64,000 nucleotides of DNA from Gammaproteobacteria bacterium. GTDB taxonomy: Bacteria > Gemmatimonadota > Gemmatimonadetes > Longimicrobiales > Gaopeijiaceae. A program made the position numbers and the translations under genes. The stretch spans positions 62,001-126,000 of the forward strand of contig JAPPHB010000064.1 in assembly GCA_028821195.1 (NCBI GenBank). Direction: 5' to 3'. The number at the start of each line of letters is the position of its first letter. The first letter of the stretch is position 1. The notes beneath the pieces were generated by a model. That model did not search any database. It worked only from the letters and a program-made list of their open reading frames with translations, and was not told the DNA's origin. Shown in pieces: positions 1,411 through 31,018 of the stretch.

Positions 1411-1513
1411 GAAGCGAGGGCCCGGAGATGGGCTCGAGAGCCGGAGAATCGTTCAAAGCCGACGAGTGAGATGGTTCAATCGGGCGACAGCTGGACGGTG
1501 CGGGGAGCGCAAC

Positions 1514-1921
1514 ATGCCAAGTGAATCAGCCGAATCGAGACGGGAACCGAATCGATTCACCCACCGCGAACTTGACATCATGAGCGTCCTCTGGCGCCGG
1601 GGCTCGGGGACGGTGGCGGAGGTCCGGGACGTCCTCGGGGAGGATGTCGGCTATACGACCGTTCTCAAGATGCTGCAGATCCTGGAGGGCAAGAACGCGG
1701 TTCGCCATGAGAAGGAAGGACGGGCCCACCGCTACTACCCACTGGTCGAATCCGCCGACGCAGGCGGCAGTGCCCTCAAGCGGGTCATGAACAAGATCTT
1801 CCACGGTTCCGCGGAGCTGCTGCTGGCGACGCTGGTCGAGAACCGGGAATTCAGTGACGAGGAGATCGAGCGCTTGCGGTCCATCCTGGATCGTGCCCAG
1901 GAGAAGGAAGACGAAAGATGA
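1514..1921 (+). CDS. blaI: BlaI/MecI/CopY family transcriptional repressor
   Basis: A 135-residue winged-helix repressor. FTHRELDIMSVLWRRGSGTV and the helix-turn-helix region with GYTTVLKMLQILE are characteristic of BlaI/MecI, followed by the EKEGRAHRYYPLV wing and a C-terminal dimerisation helix. The ATG at 1514 is chosen because it follows GGGGAG and because residues encoded upstream are not family-like. Its stop overlaps the next ATG (ATGA at 1918-1921), so repressor and M56 peptidase are translationally coupled, as in bla/mec systems where the peptidase cleaves the repressor after sensing. No beta-lactamase gene follows here, so the inducing signal is unknown. Confidence 0.9.
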   Translation: MPSESAESRREPNRFTHRELDIMSVLWRRGSGTVAEVRDVLGEDVGYTTVLKMLQILEGKNAVRHEKEGRAHRYYPLVESADAGGSALKRVMNKIFHGSAELLLATLVENREFSDEEIERLRSILDRAQEKEDER

Positions 1922-3300
1922 TCTTCTGGTGGATGGGCTACGCGGCCGGAATCGGTGTCCTGCTGGCGGTCGGCGGCTGGGCCGGCGAGCGACTCTGCGA
2001 GACGATGGGCTGGCCGCGCCGGTTCGCGTGGATCGCGGCGCTCACGCTGGCGGTGGTGATCCCTCTCGCCGCACGGCCGGCGGCCCCGGTGCTGGACGTG
2101 TCGGCCGCCGCGTCATCGCCCATCACATCGGTGGTGCAGGCAGCCGATCCGGCGGTCCCTGCGATCTCCGGGACGGGTTGGGAGCGGGCGGCGATCGTCG
2201 CCTGGGGCGCCGCCTCGCTGGCCACACTCCTGGTGTTCGGGGCAATCCTGGGCCTTATGAACCACTCGCGCCGCCGCTGGCCCCGGCGGTCGGTGGACGG
2301 CGAGGACGTCTACGTTTCGGAGGGCTTCGGCCCGGCGCTGATCGGCGTGACGCGGCCCTCCGTGGTCATCCCCGACTGGCTCTTGTGCGCGGGTGACCGG
2401 GCTGGCCGCGTGGCGATTCTGCACGAGCGCGAGCACGCCCGCGCACGCGACCACCTGACCCTCCTCTACGGCGCAGTCATCGCCGCGCTCTTCCCCTGGA
2501 GCCCGGCGGTCTGGTGGATGGTCCGCAATCTGCGGGGCGCGGTCGAAATCGACTGCGACCGCCGCGTGATCGCCTCCGGAATCCCGGCCGACGACTACGG
2601 GAAGCTGCTGCTCGCGATCGGCGTGGGACGGCACCGGCGATGGGTGTTGACACCCGCCCTTCTCGAATCCCGACATTCCCTCGAGCGGAGACTGAAGATC
2701 ATGGCTGCCAGGAAGATGAAGTGGAGCCCGCTGCGCGCGGTGACGCTGGCCGGTCTGACGCTGGCGGCGGTGGTGATCGCCTGTGATACCAACGCCCCCA
2801 CCGCCCTCGACGACGCGCTCCTTGACGTGCTGGCGAGCCCGGAAGCGGCGGCCAGCGTACAGCGTTCCCTCACCGCGCGTGCCCTGGCCGAGAAGGTTGA
2901 GGCAGCGCGGCTCAGGAGCAGTGAGCTTGGAATCGAGCCTCGACCGCTGATCTTCATCGACGGCCTGGAGGTGTCAAACCTGGACCTCTCGCTTGGGGTC
3001 GGCACATACACGGTCAAGACCGGCAGCGACCCGTACTCGCCACTGAATTCCCTGAACCCGGACGACATCGAACGGATCGAGGTCATCAAGGGATCGGCCG
3101 CAACCGGCTTGTTCGGCGACGGGGCCGCGAACGGCGTCATTCAGATCTTCACCAAGGAGCCCGAGGTGTCCGAAGCCGCAGAACCATCAGCGAGCAGTTC
3201 ACCGCCACTTGGCGACGACGGGGTCGACATCGCCTCCTTTCTACGGCTCGGGGACCCCGCCTTTGTGTTGACCACAAAGAAGCCGTCGTTCGTGCCTTAG
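1918..3300 (+). CDS. M56 (BlaR1-like) membrane metallopeptidase with TonB-plug-like C-terminal tail
   Basis: A 460-residue membrane protein. Hydrophobic helices at the N-terminus and around residues 90-115 frame a cytosolic gluzincin domain with the zinc motif HEREH (169-173) and a likely third ligand Glu at about 210 in VEIDCDRR. After LERRLKIM (about 255-262) comes another hydrophobic segment ending VVIACDT, then an external region with FIDGLEV and NPDDIERIEVIKGSAATGLF, which is the signature of the TonB-receptor plug domain rather than the penicillin-binding sensor of true BlaR1. The plug is too short and barrel-less for transport. Role inferred: sensing or protein contact that triggers cleavage of the coupled BlaI. 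The tail is partly duplicated downstream (3439-3834). Confidence 0.8.
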   Translation: MIFWWMGYAAGIGVLLAVGGWAGERLCETMGWPRRFAWIAALTLAVVIPLAARPAAPVLDVSAAASSPITSVVQAADPAVPAISGTGWERAAIVAWGAASLATLLVFGAILGLMNHSRRRWPRRSVDGEDVYVSEGFGPALIGVTRPSVVIPDWLLCAGDRAGRVAILHEREHARARDHLTLLYGAVIAALFPWSPAVWWMVRNLRGAVEIDCDRRVIASGIPADDYGKLLLAIGVGRHRRWVLTPALLESRHSLERRLKIMAARKMKWSPLRAVTLAGLTLAAVVIACDTNAPTALDDALLDVLASPEAAASVQRSLTARALAEKVEAARLRSSELGIEPRPLIFIDGLEVSNLDLSLGVGTYTVKTGSDPYSPLNSLNPDDIERIEVIKGSAATGLFGDGAANGVIQIFTKEPEVSEAAEPSASSSPPLGDDGVDIASFLRLGDPAFVLTTKKPSFVP

Positions 3301-27234: not shown

Positions 27235-27462
27235 CTATCTCCTTCTCTGCGCGCGCCGCTGCCGCGAGCGGGCCACCGCCTCCCCCACCAGCGGCCCGGC
27301 CAGCCCGCCGATGGTGCCCCCCAGCACCATCATGAACCCCAGCGGACCGAGAGTACGGACCAGCCCCACGCCGGAACTGATCGCCTGGTAGACGCTCGCG
27401 AGCCCGAAGGCGAGCGCGCCGACCACGAAGCCGATCAGGGTACGCCGCACGATTCGGTTCAT
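27235..27462 (-). CDS. Small membrane protein of unknown function
   Basis: A 75-residue protein with two hydrophobic helices (TLIGFVVGALAFGLASVYQ and PLGFMMVLGGTIGGLAGPLV) and a strongly basic C-terminus (ARSRQRRAQRRR). Its ATG overlaps the stop of the cytochrome c gene (ATGA, 27459-27462). It could anchor or assist the adjacent envelope redox proteins; no family recognised. Confidence 0.6.
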   Translation of the reverse strand: MNRIVRRTLIGFVVGALAFGLASVYQAISSGVGLVRTLGPLGFMMVLGGTIGGLAGPLVGEAVARSRQRRAQRRR

Positions 27463-27836
27463 CGGTTCTCTCCCGTTCCGTTGCCGCGGCCAGCCACGCT
27501 GCCTGCAGCCCCCTCGCCGGCCAGCCCGCGCGTCTCCAGCAGATAGCGCGCGGTCGCACGGTATTCCTCATTCGTCATGGTGCCCGGAGCCTCGTAGGGC
27601 ATCGCCAGGCGCAGGTAGCGGGTCAGCGTCTCCTCGTCGCCGCGGGACGCCAGGGTCGTCGCGGTGATCTCGGCCCCGACCTGGCCCTCCACATCATGGC
27701 AGAAGGCGCAGCGTTGGGCGTACACCAGGGCGCCGTCGATCTCGGGGCCATCGCTACAGCCGGCCAGGAGCGCGGTGGCGGAAACTGCGGCCCCGGCCAG
27801 GACGAGCGCCACTACCACGCGCGCCCGACCTTTCAC
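27459..27836 (-). CDS. Class I c-type cytochrome, lipoprotein
   Basis: A 125-residue monohaem cytochrome. The signal ends LLAGC (Cys27, lipobox), the haem site is CAFCH (43-47), and a Met ligand is likely in LAMPYEAPGTM, followed by EEYRATARYLLETRG as in class I cytochromes. The start is GTG 27836, directly after the TGA of the molybdoenzyme gene, with GGAGG inside that gene's end as ribosome-binding site. It is probably the electron acceptor of the neighbouring sulfite-oxidase-like enzyme, analogous to SorAB/SorT-SorU pairs. Confidence 0.85.
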   Translation of the reverse strand: MKGRARVVVALVLAGAAVSATALLAGCSDGPEIDGALVYAQRCAFCHDVEGQVGAEITATTLASRGDEETLTRYLRLAMPYEAPGTMTNEEYRATARYLLETRGLAGEGAAGSVAGRGNGTGENR

Positions 27837-29024
27837 TCAGCTCACCTCCACCGGGTGCGGAAGCGCCAGATTGAGCAGGTAGCCCTTCTGGTTCCACACG
27901 CCTTCCATGGGCTGGGTGTTGCCCGCCGCATCGGTGGCGCGGGTGCGCAGCGTGTAGGAACCGGGCGAGGCCTGCCACTCGAACTCGAAGCGCGTCCAGG
28001 CGTAGCGCAGGCGAGGGCCCATCAGCCGCGCGGGCGCCCAGCTGGCGCCGTCGTCCGCGCTCCACTCCACCGACTCGACGGGACCGTCGTTCGAGTAGGC
28101 GAAGCCGCGGAGCCGGGTTTTCCCCGCGGGGACCGTCCCCGGCCAGGGGAGTGCCAGCGCGCTCTTCACCGGGAGCGCCGTCACAGGGGCGCCGTCGGCG
28201 GGCGCGTACTGCTCGGCGGGCCAGTCCGGGCCGATCAGGACGTACGAACTGGTGTTGGCGCCTACCCAGATCGGCTCGGTGGAGACCTGGATCTCCCCGA
28301 CCCACTTGATGCTGTTGCTTCCCGCCCAGCCGGGCACCACGCCGCGCACCGGGAACCCGTGGTCGGGAGGCAGCGGCTCGCCGTTCATCGACAGGGCGAG
28401 CAGGGTGTCCGGGTCCATCGCCTTGTCCACCGGCATGGGCCGGCTGAAGCCCCCGTCGTCGAGGCCCACGAGGTTGACCGCCACCGCCTCCGGCCGCAGC
28501 CCGGCCGCCGTGAGCACCGAAGCCAGCGACGGTCCCGACCACGCAGCGCATCCGACCGCCCCCGTGCTCCACTGCGTACCCTCGGCCGCCTGTCCCAGCA
28601 CGCGGGCATAGAAGCCGCGCCAGTTGCCGGCGCACTCCAGGTACGCAATCACCGACTGGCTCGGCAGCGCGCGCAGGTCGTCGAGGCCGAGTTCGATGCT
28701 CCGTTCGATGCCGTCGCCGGTGACGCGCAACCGGTAGTCGTCCGCCGCGATTGCCGGGGTCGGGGCATGATTGCGCACGAAGAAGAGGTCGTTGGGTGTG
28801 ATCAGCCCGTCGAGGAGTTCGAGCCGGCTCTCCAGGTTGATGGCGTGGCGGATGAAGGGATCGGGATCCTTGAACCACGCCGTGTCCAGTTCGGGATCGA
28901 CGGCGCCGGTGTCAGAGCGACAGCCCGGGAGGAAGGCGGATGCCCCGCCCGCGGCCAGCAGCGCCGTGAACTGCCGGCGGGAGAGCGACCCGCCCGGCAA
29001 CCCCTGCCCCTGCCGCCCGCTCAC
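27837..29024 (-). CDS. Sulfite-oxidase-family molybdenum enzyme, Tat-exported lipoprotein
   Basis: A 395-residue molybdopterin oxidoreductase. The N-terminus has a Tat motif SRRQF, a hydrophobic stretch and a lipobox-like FLPGC, so it is predicted to be folded before export and lipid-anchored. The molybdenum ligand is C131 in VIAYLECAGNWRGFY, and the family segment HGFPVRGVVPGWAGSNSIKW is present. The C-terminal Ig-like dimerisation domain (GFAYSNDGPVESVEWSADDG) matches SoxC/SorA. The GTG at 29024 overlaps the OsmC stop (GTGA). The likely role is periplasmic oxidation of sulfite or a related compound, with electrons passed to the next-encoded cytochrome c. The exact substrate is not provable from sequence. 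Confidence 0.85.
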   Translation of the reverse strand: MSGRQGQGLPGGSLSRRQFTALLAAGGASAFLPGCRSDTGAVDPELDTAWFKDPDPFIRHAINLESRLELLDGLITPNDLFFVRNHAPTPAIAADDYRLRVTGDGIERSIELGLDDLRALPSQSVIAYLECAGNWRGFYARVLGQAAEGTQWSTGAVGCAAWSGPSLASVLTAAGLRPEAVAVNLVGLDDGGFSRPMPVDKAMDPDTLLALSMNGEPLPPDHGFPVRGVVPGWAGSNSIKWVGEIQVSTEPIWVGANTSSYVLIGPDWPAEQYAPADGAPVTALPVKSALALPWPGTVPAGKTRLRGFAYSNDGPVESVEWSADDGASWAPARLMGPRLRYAWTRFEFEWQASPGSYTLRTRATDAAGNTQPMEGVWNQKGYLLNLALPHPVEVS

Positions 29025-29479
29025 GACACGATCTCGATTTCGAGTTCGGTGGAGAACTCGACGCACCCGACCAGGGTCCGGTAGACGGGGCAGTAGGGGT
29101 GATGGATCTCGTGCGCCCGCCGCGCGCGCTCCTCCTTCCCCGCCTCCATGCGCAGGTGGTAGCGCACATGAACGGTGCGAATCACGAGCACGCCGTCCTC
29201 CTTGTCGATGCCTCCCTCGACCTCGGAGGTCAGGCGATCCTGCCCTGCCGGAATCCCGCGCGCCTCCAGCGCGCCGCCAAGGGTTCCCGTCAGTCAGCCT
29301 CCGGCCGCCGCCACAATGTAGTCGAGGGTGGTGGCCACCGGCGTTTCCGGCTCGACGCCGTAGTGGCTGGCGATCTCGCTGTGCACCCCGAACAGGACGG
29401 CGTCGGGTGTCGCCGGCAAATGCGCGTGGCGCAACGGGCCCGCCTTGCGCTCGATGCGGACTCGGGAGGTGTAGACCAC
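29021..29479 (-). CDS. OsmC-family peroxidase, candidate selenoprotein (in-frame UGA as Sec62)
   Basis: Read through one in-frame TGA at 29294-29296, this gives a 152-residue OsmC-like protein. The N-terminal half ends DYIVAAAGG just before the UGA and continues in the same frame as LTGTLGGALEARGIPAGQD through HPYCPVYRTLVGC to EFSTELEIEIVS. The UGA (residue 62) sits where OsmC/Ohr proteins have the peroxidatic Cys, and C130 is 68 residues later, close to the 66-residue spacing of E. coli OsmC C59/C125. The frame stays open for 90 codons after the UGA and ends in a GTGA overlap with the next gene, so this is not random read-through. GTG 29479 follows GGAG. OsmC enzymes reduce organic hydroperoxides with thiols. 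Confidence 0.8.
29258..29274 (-). promoter_or_regulatory. Candidate bacterial SECIS hairpin in osmC
   Basis: Downstream of the UGA on the minus strand, GCGCGC-TGGAG-GCGCGC forms a 6-base-pair stem with a 5-base loop that begins 26 nucleotides after the UGA. Bacterial SECIS elements lie roughly 16-37 nucleotides from the UGA to the apical loop and need a G in the first two loop positions; the loop UGGAG has G at position 2. An outer CCC/GGG pairing may extend it. Confidence 0.65.
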
Positions 29480-29632
29480 GGGTTGTCTCCTTACGTGACG
29501 GCTTGCGATTGTGTGCGTGTTTGCGGTGGCGTCTGCGCGCGTCCGGTGGCGGCTGGTGCTTGCGATGGTCTGGCGGGTGTCGGGCTCCTGGGCCGGGGCT
29601 CGGGGCGCTGCCGGATCGGGGAGTGGACGCGG

Positions 29633-30835
29633 CTACACGGCGACCGCGCGGGACCCGAGCTCCTCCATGGCTGCATCGACCGCACCCGCGGTGTCGACCG
29701 CGCACCCGCTCGCCCCCAGGGCGTCGCCCACGGCGCGGATGGTGCGCCGCAGCAGGTCCGGCCGGGTGGTCACGTAGCCCATGTGCCCCACGCGGAAGTA
29801 CCGGTCGGCCATGGCGGGATGCAGTCCCGCCGCGACGATCACGCCCCGCTCGACGATACGGCCCACCAGGGCGGCGTCCACGCCCGCCGGGTACCGGACC
29901 GCGCTCAGGGTATTCGCGCAGTGCGCGTCGCTGGCGGGGACCACGCCGAGCCCCATGTGCGCCCAGGCGGCCCGCATGGCCCGGCCGGCCCGCGCATGGC
30001 GCTCGATGCGCGCATCCACCCCCTCGAGCCCATCCAGCCGATCGGAGAGGATCTCATCCAGCGCGACCTCGGCCGCGACGAGGAGGTTGGTCGCGGGGGT
30101 GGCGAAGTAGCTCATCCGGCCCGCCTCGTGCGTCTCCATGATGGGCAGCCAGACGTTCCAGTCGAGGTAAAGGGGACAGGGTGTGCGGCGCTTCCGGCTC
30201 GCCTCCATCGCGCGCGGGCCGGCCACGAAGAGCGCCAGTCCGGGCGGGAGCCCCATCGCCTTCTGCGAGGCGGTGAAATACACGTCGGCGCCCCATTCGG
30301 ACATCTCGAAGGCCTCCGCCCCGGTGGCGCAGACGCCGTCGAAGACGGAGAGCACTCCGCGCGAGCGCGCGGCCGCCGCCAGGGCGGCCGGATCGACGAG
30401 CACGCCGGTCGAGGTATCGACATGGGTCGCGAACAGCGCCTTGGCCGCGCAGGCGTCCAGGGCGGCCGCCACCTCCTCCGGCTCCGGCCGCTCGCCCGGC
30501 GGGCTGACCACCGTATGGACCTTGACCCCGCGATGCTCCAGCACCAGCCGCATGCGGTCGGCGAAGTAGCCGGTGTCCACGAGCAGGGCTTCGTCGCCCG
30601 GGTCGAGCAGGTTCACCGCCGCCATGTCCATCGCCAGCGTCCCGCTTCCCGCGACCATGAACGGCTGTGCGCCCTCCCCGGCTCGCCACACTTCGCGCAT
30701 CCGGCTCAGCGACTCGCCGAACGCCTTCACCACGAAGGGTTGACCGTGGCCGGGAGGCGGCCTCGAAAAGGCGCGCAGTACCTCCGGGGAGACCTCGATG
30801 GGTCCGGGGATCATCAGCAGGGGACGTTCGCTCAT
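29633..30835 (-). CDS. Class V aminotransferase, alanine-glyoxylate/serine-pyruvate type
   Basis: A 400-residue PLP enzyme of fold type I. IPGPIEVSPEVLRAFSRP is the hallmark N-terminus of alanine-glyoxylate and serine-pyruvate aminotransferases; VAGSGTLAMDM binds the phosphate, SVFDGVCATGAE holds the cofactor Asp, and the Schiff-base Lys is K192 in FTASQKAMGLPPGLA. The C-terminal FRVGHMGYVT is also conserved. It may act in glyoxylate or serine metabolism. ATG 30835 is preferred over a much longer reading that runs antisense through the Nramp-like gene. It lies 153 bases upstream of the OsmC operon, same strand. Confidence 0.9.
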   Translation of the reverse strand: MSERPLLMIPGPIEVSPEVLRAFSRPPPGHGQPFVVKAFGESLSRMREVWRAGEGAQPFMVAGSGTLAMDMAAVNLLDPGDEALLVDTGYFADRMRLVLEHRGVKVHTVVSPPGERPEPEEVAAALDACAAKALFATHVDTSTGVLVDPAALAAAARSRGVLSVFDGVCATGAEAFEMSEWGADVYFTASQKAMGLPPGLALFVAGPRAMEASRKRRTPCPLYLDWNVWLPIMETHEAGRMSYFATPATNLLVAAEVALDEILSDRLDGLEGVDARIERHARAGRAMRAAWAHMGLGVVPASDAHCANTLSAVRYPAGVDAALVGRIVERGVIVAAGLHPAMADRYFRVGHMGYVTTRPDLLRRTIRAVGDALGASGCAVDTAGAVDAAMEELGSRAVAV

Positions 30836-31018
30836 GGCACCTGGCAGAGGGTTGCAGTCTGGGGAGTGCGGCACCTTGAATCGCTCTCGCCCGGGAGCCG
30901 AAGCTAACAAATACGGCGGAGCCCCGGAAAGCCGCCCGAAATCCCCGATCTTTCTGTTCTTCCCCGTGCCTCCCATTATGCCCGGCGGACGCCCTCCATC
31001 ATCCAGCGGAGAAACCCC

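Follow-up and report, generated by a model that had tools for sequence, protein, structure and literature searches.

Within the window, by which we mean the whole 64,000-nucleotide stretch of contig JAPPHB010000064.1 that was analysed, a gene of the OsmC family lies on the minus strand (the earlier note had given no strand) and carries an in-frame UGA at codon 62 (Table 1). From its GTG start (29479-29477) the reading frame runs through 61 codons, the UGA and 90 further codons (63-152) to a TGA stop (29023-29021). The earlier note had described 90 in-frame codons after the UGA, a second cysteine at residue 130 and a stop that overlaps the next gene, and all three are found: the stop shares four bases (GTGA, 29024-29021) with the GTG of the downstream gene, and Cys130 is present in all 44 non-redundant relatives. 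A third cysteine, residue 139, lacks such conservation, being present in 10 of the 44.

Table 1. Positions of the features discussed in the text, numbered along the window unless a locus is named.
Feature	Position	Strand	Remarks
OsmC-family selenoprotein gene (predicted)	29021..29479	-	GTG start; 152 residues; Sec = residue 62
AAGGAGA, likely ribosome-binding site for the GTG start	29486..29492	-	read from the sequence
UGA codon 62, read as selenocysteine	29294..29296	-	aligned to the conserved Cys in OsmC-family proteins
SECIS-like hairpin	29258..29274	-	6 bp stem GCGCGC/GCGCGC (29274-29269 with 29263-29258), loop UGGAG (29268-29264)
Cys130 codon (HPYCPVYR), likely resolving Cys	29090..29092	-	Cys in 44/44 non-redundant relatives
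Downstream molybdopterin oxidoreductase gene, sulfite-oxidase type	27837..29024	-	PF00174, PF03404; 4-base overlap
L050 Cys member	L050:4458-4907		

A Pfam OsmC match (PF02566) extends across the UGA, covering residues 52-144 with 51.8 bits (cut-off 27.5, E 1.1e-13). In ten genes of the same genus, the codons 3' of the UGA show 8, 5 and 35 variable sites at the first, second and third codon positions, and 28 of the 90 codons vary synonymously only. Variation after the UGA is of the type seen in coding sequence.

The UGA is kept at the same place in nearly all relatives. In 59 related genomes, 54 of the 55 places that match the protein hold exactly one TGA, and the exception (in G042) is an ordinary Cys-containing protein of the OsmC type (L146). 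A draw of 395 Gemmatimonadota genomes yielded 118 with a match. Some of the weak matches among these probably come from non-members (G042; G290, E 3e-9; G345, E 6e-9), and we therefore use the figure of at least 104 genomes, from which the 150 matches listed are drawn; all 150 hold one TGA, and further, weaker matches lie beyond them. The earlier note had called such proteins rare, a description that does not suit Gemmatimonadota. Since the count of TGA codons in a match gives their number and not their location, the location was checked in fetched loci, where TGA stands at codon 62 in 95 of 96. These 96 hits in 96 loci reduce to 64 distinct genes, and these to 44 that are less than 85% alike, the non-redundant set. 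The 64 distinct genes, the window's own included, are 35-98% identical to the latter and come from Gemmatimonadota, Acidobacteriota, Actinomycetota, Bacillota and Candidatus Eiseniibacteriota; codon 62 is UGA in 63 of them and TGT (Cys) in the other. A scan with peptide patterns lacking the Sec residue, covering one genome from each of 84,980 species, gave 18 named loci, partly overlapping the other genome sets. The UGA is at codon 62 in 17 of them, and the remaining locus, L050 from a Syntrophobacteraceae MAG, has TGT (Cys). A plasmid collection gave no match at E 1e-5.

The selenocysteine machinery, a search for which had been proposed as a check, is present in the window's own genome: SelA (439.6 bits), SelB (308.3 bits) and SelD (300.2 bits) were found together with a tRNA-Sec (74.8 bits). 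These sel genes lie on contigs other than that of the window, in an assembly with 5.89% contamination. Among 14 well-known genomes used as controls, SelA gave a match in two, and SelB and SelD were over the cut-off in two. The tRNA-Sec model passes its cut-off in 5 of the 14 and is weak evidence when taken alone; the call by ARAGORN of a tRNA-SeC with anticodon tca is therefore the better support for selC. Across the 59 related genomes, the UGA gene and SelA occur together in 34, the gene alone in 2, SelA alone in 6 and neither in 17 (Fisher p 4.6e-8), with G035 counted as having the UGA gene despite a weak match (E 9.5e-4); without G035 the table becomes 33/2/7/17. Outside the window's own genus the corresponding numbers are 23/2/6/17 (p 2.7e-6).

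The two genomes that have the UGA gene and no SelA match, G012 and G043, were included with the genome of the Cys gene among 12 that were checked for SelA and SelB. SelA was over the cut-off in seven of the 12, once weakly (G405, 23.8 bits), and SelB in eight; 9 of the 12, and 8 of the 11 with a UGA gene, have SelA with a strong score, SelB over the cut-off, or both. The named strain Peribacillus kribbensis DSM 17871 (L055) carries the selenoprotein gene together with SelA and SelB. Neither was found in G012, G413 and G408, of which G413 is apparently the same genome as G012 (identical places in the SelB search). We take the SelA and SelB misses in these mostly draft assemblies to be gaps, as an assumption rather than a proof.

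The earlier note had also reported a 6-base-pair hairpin with a G-containing loop, starting 26 nucleotides after the UGA. Its stem and loop are as described and the offset is not: the stem starts 20 nt downstream of the UGA, the 26-nt offset being that of the loop. With the U of UGA as column 1, columns 23-28 pair with columns 34-39. The stem is complete in 42 of the 43 non-redundant UGA genes, and the loop starts with UGG in all 43. Two pairs have changed on both sides, from C-G to U-A in three genes and from G-C to A-U in ten. These 13 double-changed cells (shuffled mean 2.8) and a covariation score of 0.228 were each equalled in 0 of 500 shuffles, a comparison in which related sequences may exceed shuffles without any structure. 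Of the five pairing measures, two are not raised above the shuffles, namely the number of double-changed pairs (2; 89/500 as high) and that of further pair types (5; 492/500). Control pairings with the partner slid along are 2-75% paired, versus 99.6% for the stem.

Codon usage in the hairpin is constrained as well. The two lowest codon entropies among 40 conserved columns both fall within it, at Leu71 (CTG 43/43) and Gly69 (GGC 42/43), whereas all four glycine codons are used at the invariant Gly31, Gly65 and Gly89. Wherever codon 70 is GCA, codon 73 is GTG (10 genes), and wherever it is GTG, codon 73 is GCA (3 genes); the sole mixed case, GCG with GTG, still gives a G-U pair. Codons 69-74 have no variable site in the ten same-genus genes, and the hairpin is retained in Peribacillus (L055). 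Folding energy, compared with synonymous-codon shuffles of these G+C-rich genes, gives no support (mean z -0.45 for 31 genes, the Cys gene included; -0.15 for a control stretch). We regard the hairpin as a candidate SECIS for which the support comes from conserved codons and compensatory changes, not from folding energy.

From these comparisons we consider it nearly certain that selenocysteine would be incorporated at codon 62; the proposal of an OsmC-family selenoprotein is borne out by the UGA in 63 of 64 genes, the Sec machinery and the hairpin. A UGA that acts as a true stop, leaving a pseudogene or a 61-residue fragment, matches the table 11 ORF list, which contains the 61-residue ORF that the earlier note expected from automated calls. 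The conservation of the UGA at one codon and the coding-type variation downstream of it speak so strongly against such a stop that we give it next to no weight. A code-4 reading of the UGA was rejected alongside the pseudogene and plain-stop readings. Decoding as another residue (Trp, or Cys via a suppressor tRNA), independently of a SECIS and SelB, would suit the three of 12 checked genomes, two of them apparently one genome, that have neither a strong SelA nor a SelB over the cut-off. It is nevertheless very improbable in view of the hairpin covariation, the co-occurrence with SelA, the full Sec machinery in the window's genome and the presence of Cys in the one member that lacks the UGA. 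Similarly small is the chance that the hairpin is a mere by-product of G+C-rich codons for a conserved GALEAR peptide. Its folding energy hardly differs from that of synonymous shuffles, as such a by-product would allow, but the uniform Leu71 and Gly69 codons stand against the free choice at other invariant glycines, the paired exchanges at codons 70 and 73 keep the pairing, and the hairpin is kept in Peribacillus and decayed in the Cys member.

The predicted monomer, modelled with Cys at position 62, is an OsmC fold (pLDDT 95.3, pTM 0.88). Its best match in the PDB is an OsmC-like protein (E 9.4e-9), and the 50 Foldseek matches listed are named OsmC, Ohr or redox protein, or are unnamed structural-genomics entries, with 10-19% identity. 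The alignment behind the model and the PDB profile has 40 rows, three of them (L091, L147, L121) from outside the clade. Sec62 aligns with Cys in 1ukk, 2opl, 1ml8, 9wo1 and 1vla, and Cys130 with the CPV Cys of 1ukk and 9wo1; 2opl has Ser there. Comparison with Cys homologues, another check proposed at the outset, hence places Cys at the position of codon 62 in solved OsmC proteins, as in L050. Residue 62 is Sec in 43 and Cys in one of the non-redundant proteins, and residues 31, 33, 53, 65, 66, 69, 74, 89, 121, 130 and 131 are invariant in all 44. The two redox residues of the OsmC/Ohr family lie about 64-68 residues apart, a distance that residues 62 and 130 fit. The window's protein resembles the Ohr/OsmC Cys peroxidases (XfOhr, E. 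coli OsmC and T. thermophilus OsmC, 1ukk) in fold and in the place of the Cys at residue 62, and differs from them in having Sec for Cys and Asp for Glu.

According to the available part of the XfOhr study, that enzyme has a triad of Arg19, Glu51 and Cys61, a resolving Cys125, and is re-reduced by a lipoylated protein (PMC5962072). Arg17, Asp53, Sec62 and Cys130 are spaced similarly to these residues. Asp53 is found in 44 of 44 proteins where Ohr has Glu, and Arg17 in 42 of the 43 rows with a letter there, its equivalence to the Ohr Arg resting on spacing only.

SelB delivers Sec-tRNA at UGA codons. We propose that the hairpin 20 nt after codon 62 acts as the SECIS, that SelB brings the Sec-tRNA, and that the ribosome would insert selenocysteine and read on to the stop at 29021. 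Judging from the fold and the conserved residues, the product is probably a peroxidase of the OsmC type that forms a dimer. In it, Arg17 and Asp53 would hold the selenolate of Sec62, which would reduce an organic hydroperoxide, Cys130 would resolve the product to a selenenylsulfide, and a dithiol partner (a lipoylated protein or thioredoxin) would re-reduce the latter. Taken as a whole, Sec insertion by way of SECIS and SelB followed by a peroxidase mechanism of the OsmC type is very probably the best explanation, and that Sec62 and Cys130 would form a redox pair is, from their conservation, only slightly less so. We lean towards hydroperoxide as the main substrate, a chemistry that we infer. 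Of the earlier claim that the UGA occupies the peroxidatic cysteine position, the alignment with the conserved OsmC Cys stands and the peroxidase role stays inferred.

It is possible, and in our estimate clearly less probable, that the selenoprotein, resembling E. coli YhfA, is not mainly a hydroperoxide reductase and may act on sulfur species or disulfides. The profile fits 1ml8, a 'crp region' protein that we take to be YhfA, as well as it fits 1ukk OsmC (39.2 and 39.4 bits). In the part of the text available, the activity of YhfA is called unknown (PMC5962072). The four-base overlap with a gene of the sulfite-oxidase type points in the same direction, but this neighbour is seen in the same genus only, and Arg17, the acidic residue and the Sec/Cys pair are placed as the triad and resolving Cys of Ohr, in line with the peroxidase that we prefer. 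Tblastn searches with ten genes of the window found the neighbours in the same genus only, save for weak matches to an SSS transporter in L081 and L087, and a crude inspection by eye of the ORF list around 18 loci showed no common neighbour (no ORFs were called for L078). Since no neighbour was seen to be conserved outside the genus, the context does not name the substrate.

Within the genus, the selenoprotein gene is followed by the gene of the sulfite-oxidase type, a gene resembling those of c-type cytochromes and an ORF of 75 residues lacking a Pfam match (27235-29024 in the window, minus strand). A class-V aminotransferase gene lies upstream on the same strand (29633-30850). Two loci, L041 and L042, match the window's gene at 97% and have the same neighbourhood.

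A tree of 71 rows places the Cys member L050 within the UGA clade, with two UGA genes from actinobacteria as its neighbours (89/87), in a 26-row branch (97/91). This tree is based on few columns, with flagged long branches and an unsettled bootstrap. Because L050 nests within the UGA clade, a change from Sec to Cys would be the simplest reading of the tree. Its hairpin is decayed, with two of six pairs left, and the residue at the place of Arg17 is Asn, yet SelA and SelB are still present in its genome. The clade divides into two subclades, and 17 of the 59 related genomes carry at least two matches, including the window's genome (G000:C123, 37%). On balance we favour an OsmC selenoprotein family of its own, missed by current annotation models, in which Sec is ancestral and nearly obligatory and Cys arose secondarily by loss. 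It would have an active site of the form U-x-x-G-T, an Arg-Asp-Sec triad and two paralogous branches that occur together in many Gemmatimonadota.

The kind of protein is known. OsmC-like selenoproteins from marine surveys, which the earlier note had mentioned, have been reported since 2005, in the available parts of the Sargasso Sea (PMC1088965) and GOS (2008; PMC2398784) studies and of two reviews (PMC9312934, PMC13188914). The marine proteins share the OsmC family and the Sec with the window's clade, and their SECIS is drawn in Figure 3 of the 2005 paper (PMC1088965). By their table entries they are set apart, the marine tables giving a UxxT motif and 3 and 5 sequences, whereas the window's clade has U-x-x-G-T and is common in one phylum; identity of the two is possible. 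The NCBIfam model NF041052 (OsmC_like_Se, OsmC-related (seleno)protein) belongs to the same superfamily, and its match spans the Sec residue. It scores four UGA members at 17.6, 29.1, 31.8 and 26.0 bits, far below the cut-off of 95, and passes that cut-off in 0 of 298 Gemmatimonadota genomes, for which reason the Sec-dominated clade looks like an unrecognised variant and seems new. No match to NF041052 was listed for L050. In the literature searched, with preprints and most subscription papers outside its scope, we found no publication on this clade.

In bacteria, most families of selenoproteins include many versions with Cys as well. Several are marked 'widespread' in the table of the 2005 paper, as far as it was available (PMC1088965). 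Here, across several phyla, the UGA is nearly universal, and the only Cys gene found, with its decayed hairpin, lies inside the UGA clade, which makes the family well suited to the question of what an OsmC-type enzyme gains from selenium. Such genes also bear on annotation errors, as table 11 breaks them at the UGA, and one-TGA matches occur in at least 104 of the 395 Gemmatimonadota genomes drawn.

A second OsmC-like clade with UGA occurs in the same phylum (L133-L145, 13 loci viewed). Like the window's gene, its members are OsmC-like, with one internal UGA and a UCGCGC-type hairpin-like stretch after it; they differ in their motif, U-T/M-S-M/I-T, and stand apart from the window gene's clade in the tree. 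With NF041052 they score 38.9-53.8 bits, below the cut-off of 95. Matches with two TGA codons had raised the suspicion of double-Sec proteins, which was dropped: read-through of L134, L135 and L136 shows one internal UGA each, so that the second TGA is most likely an ordinary stop. At L133, two OsmC-like genes of different clades (1003-1380 and 1496-1945, plus strand), with one in-frame UGA each, have their matches 115 bases apart.
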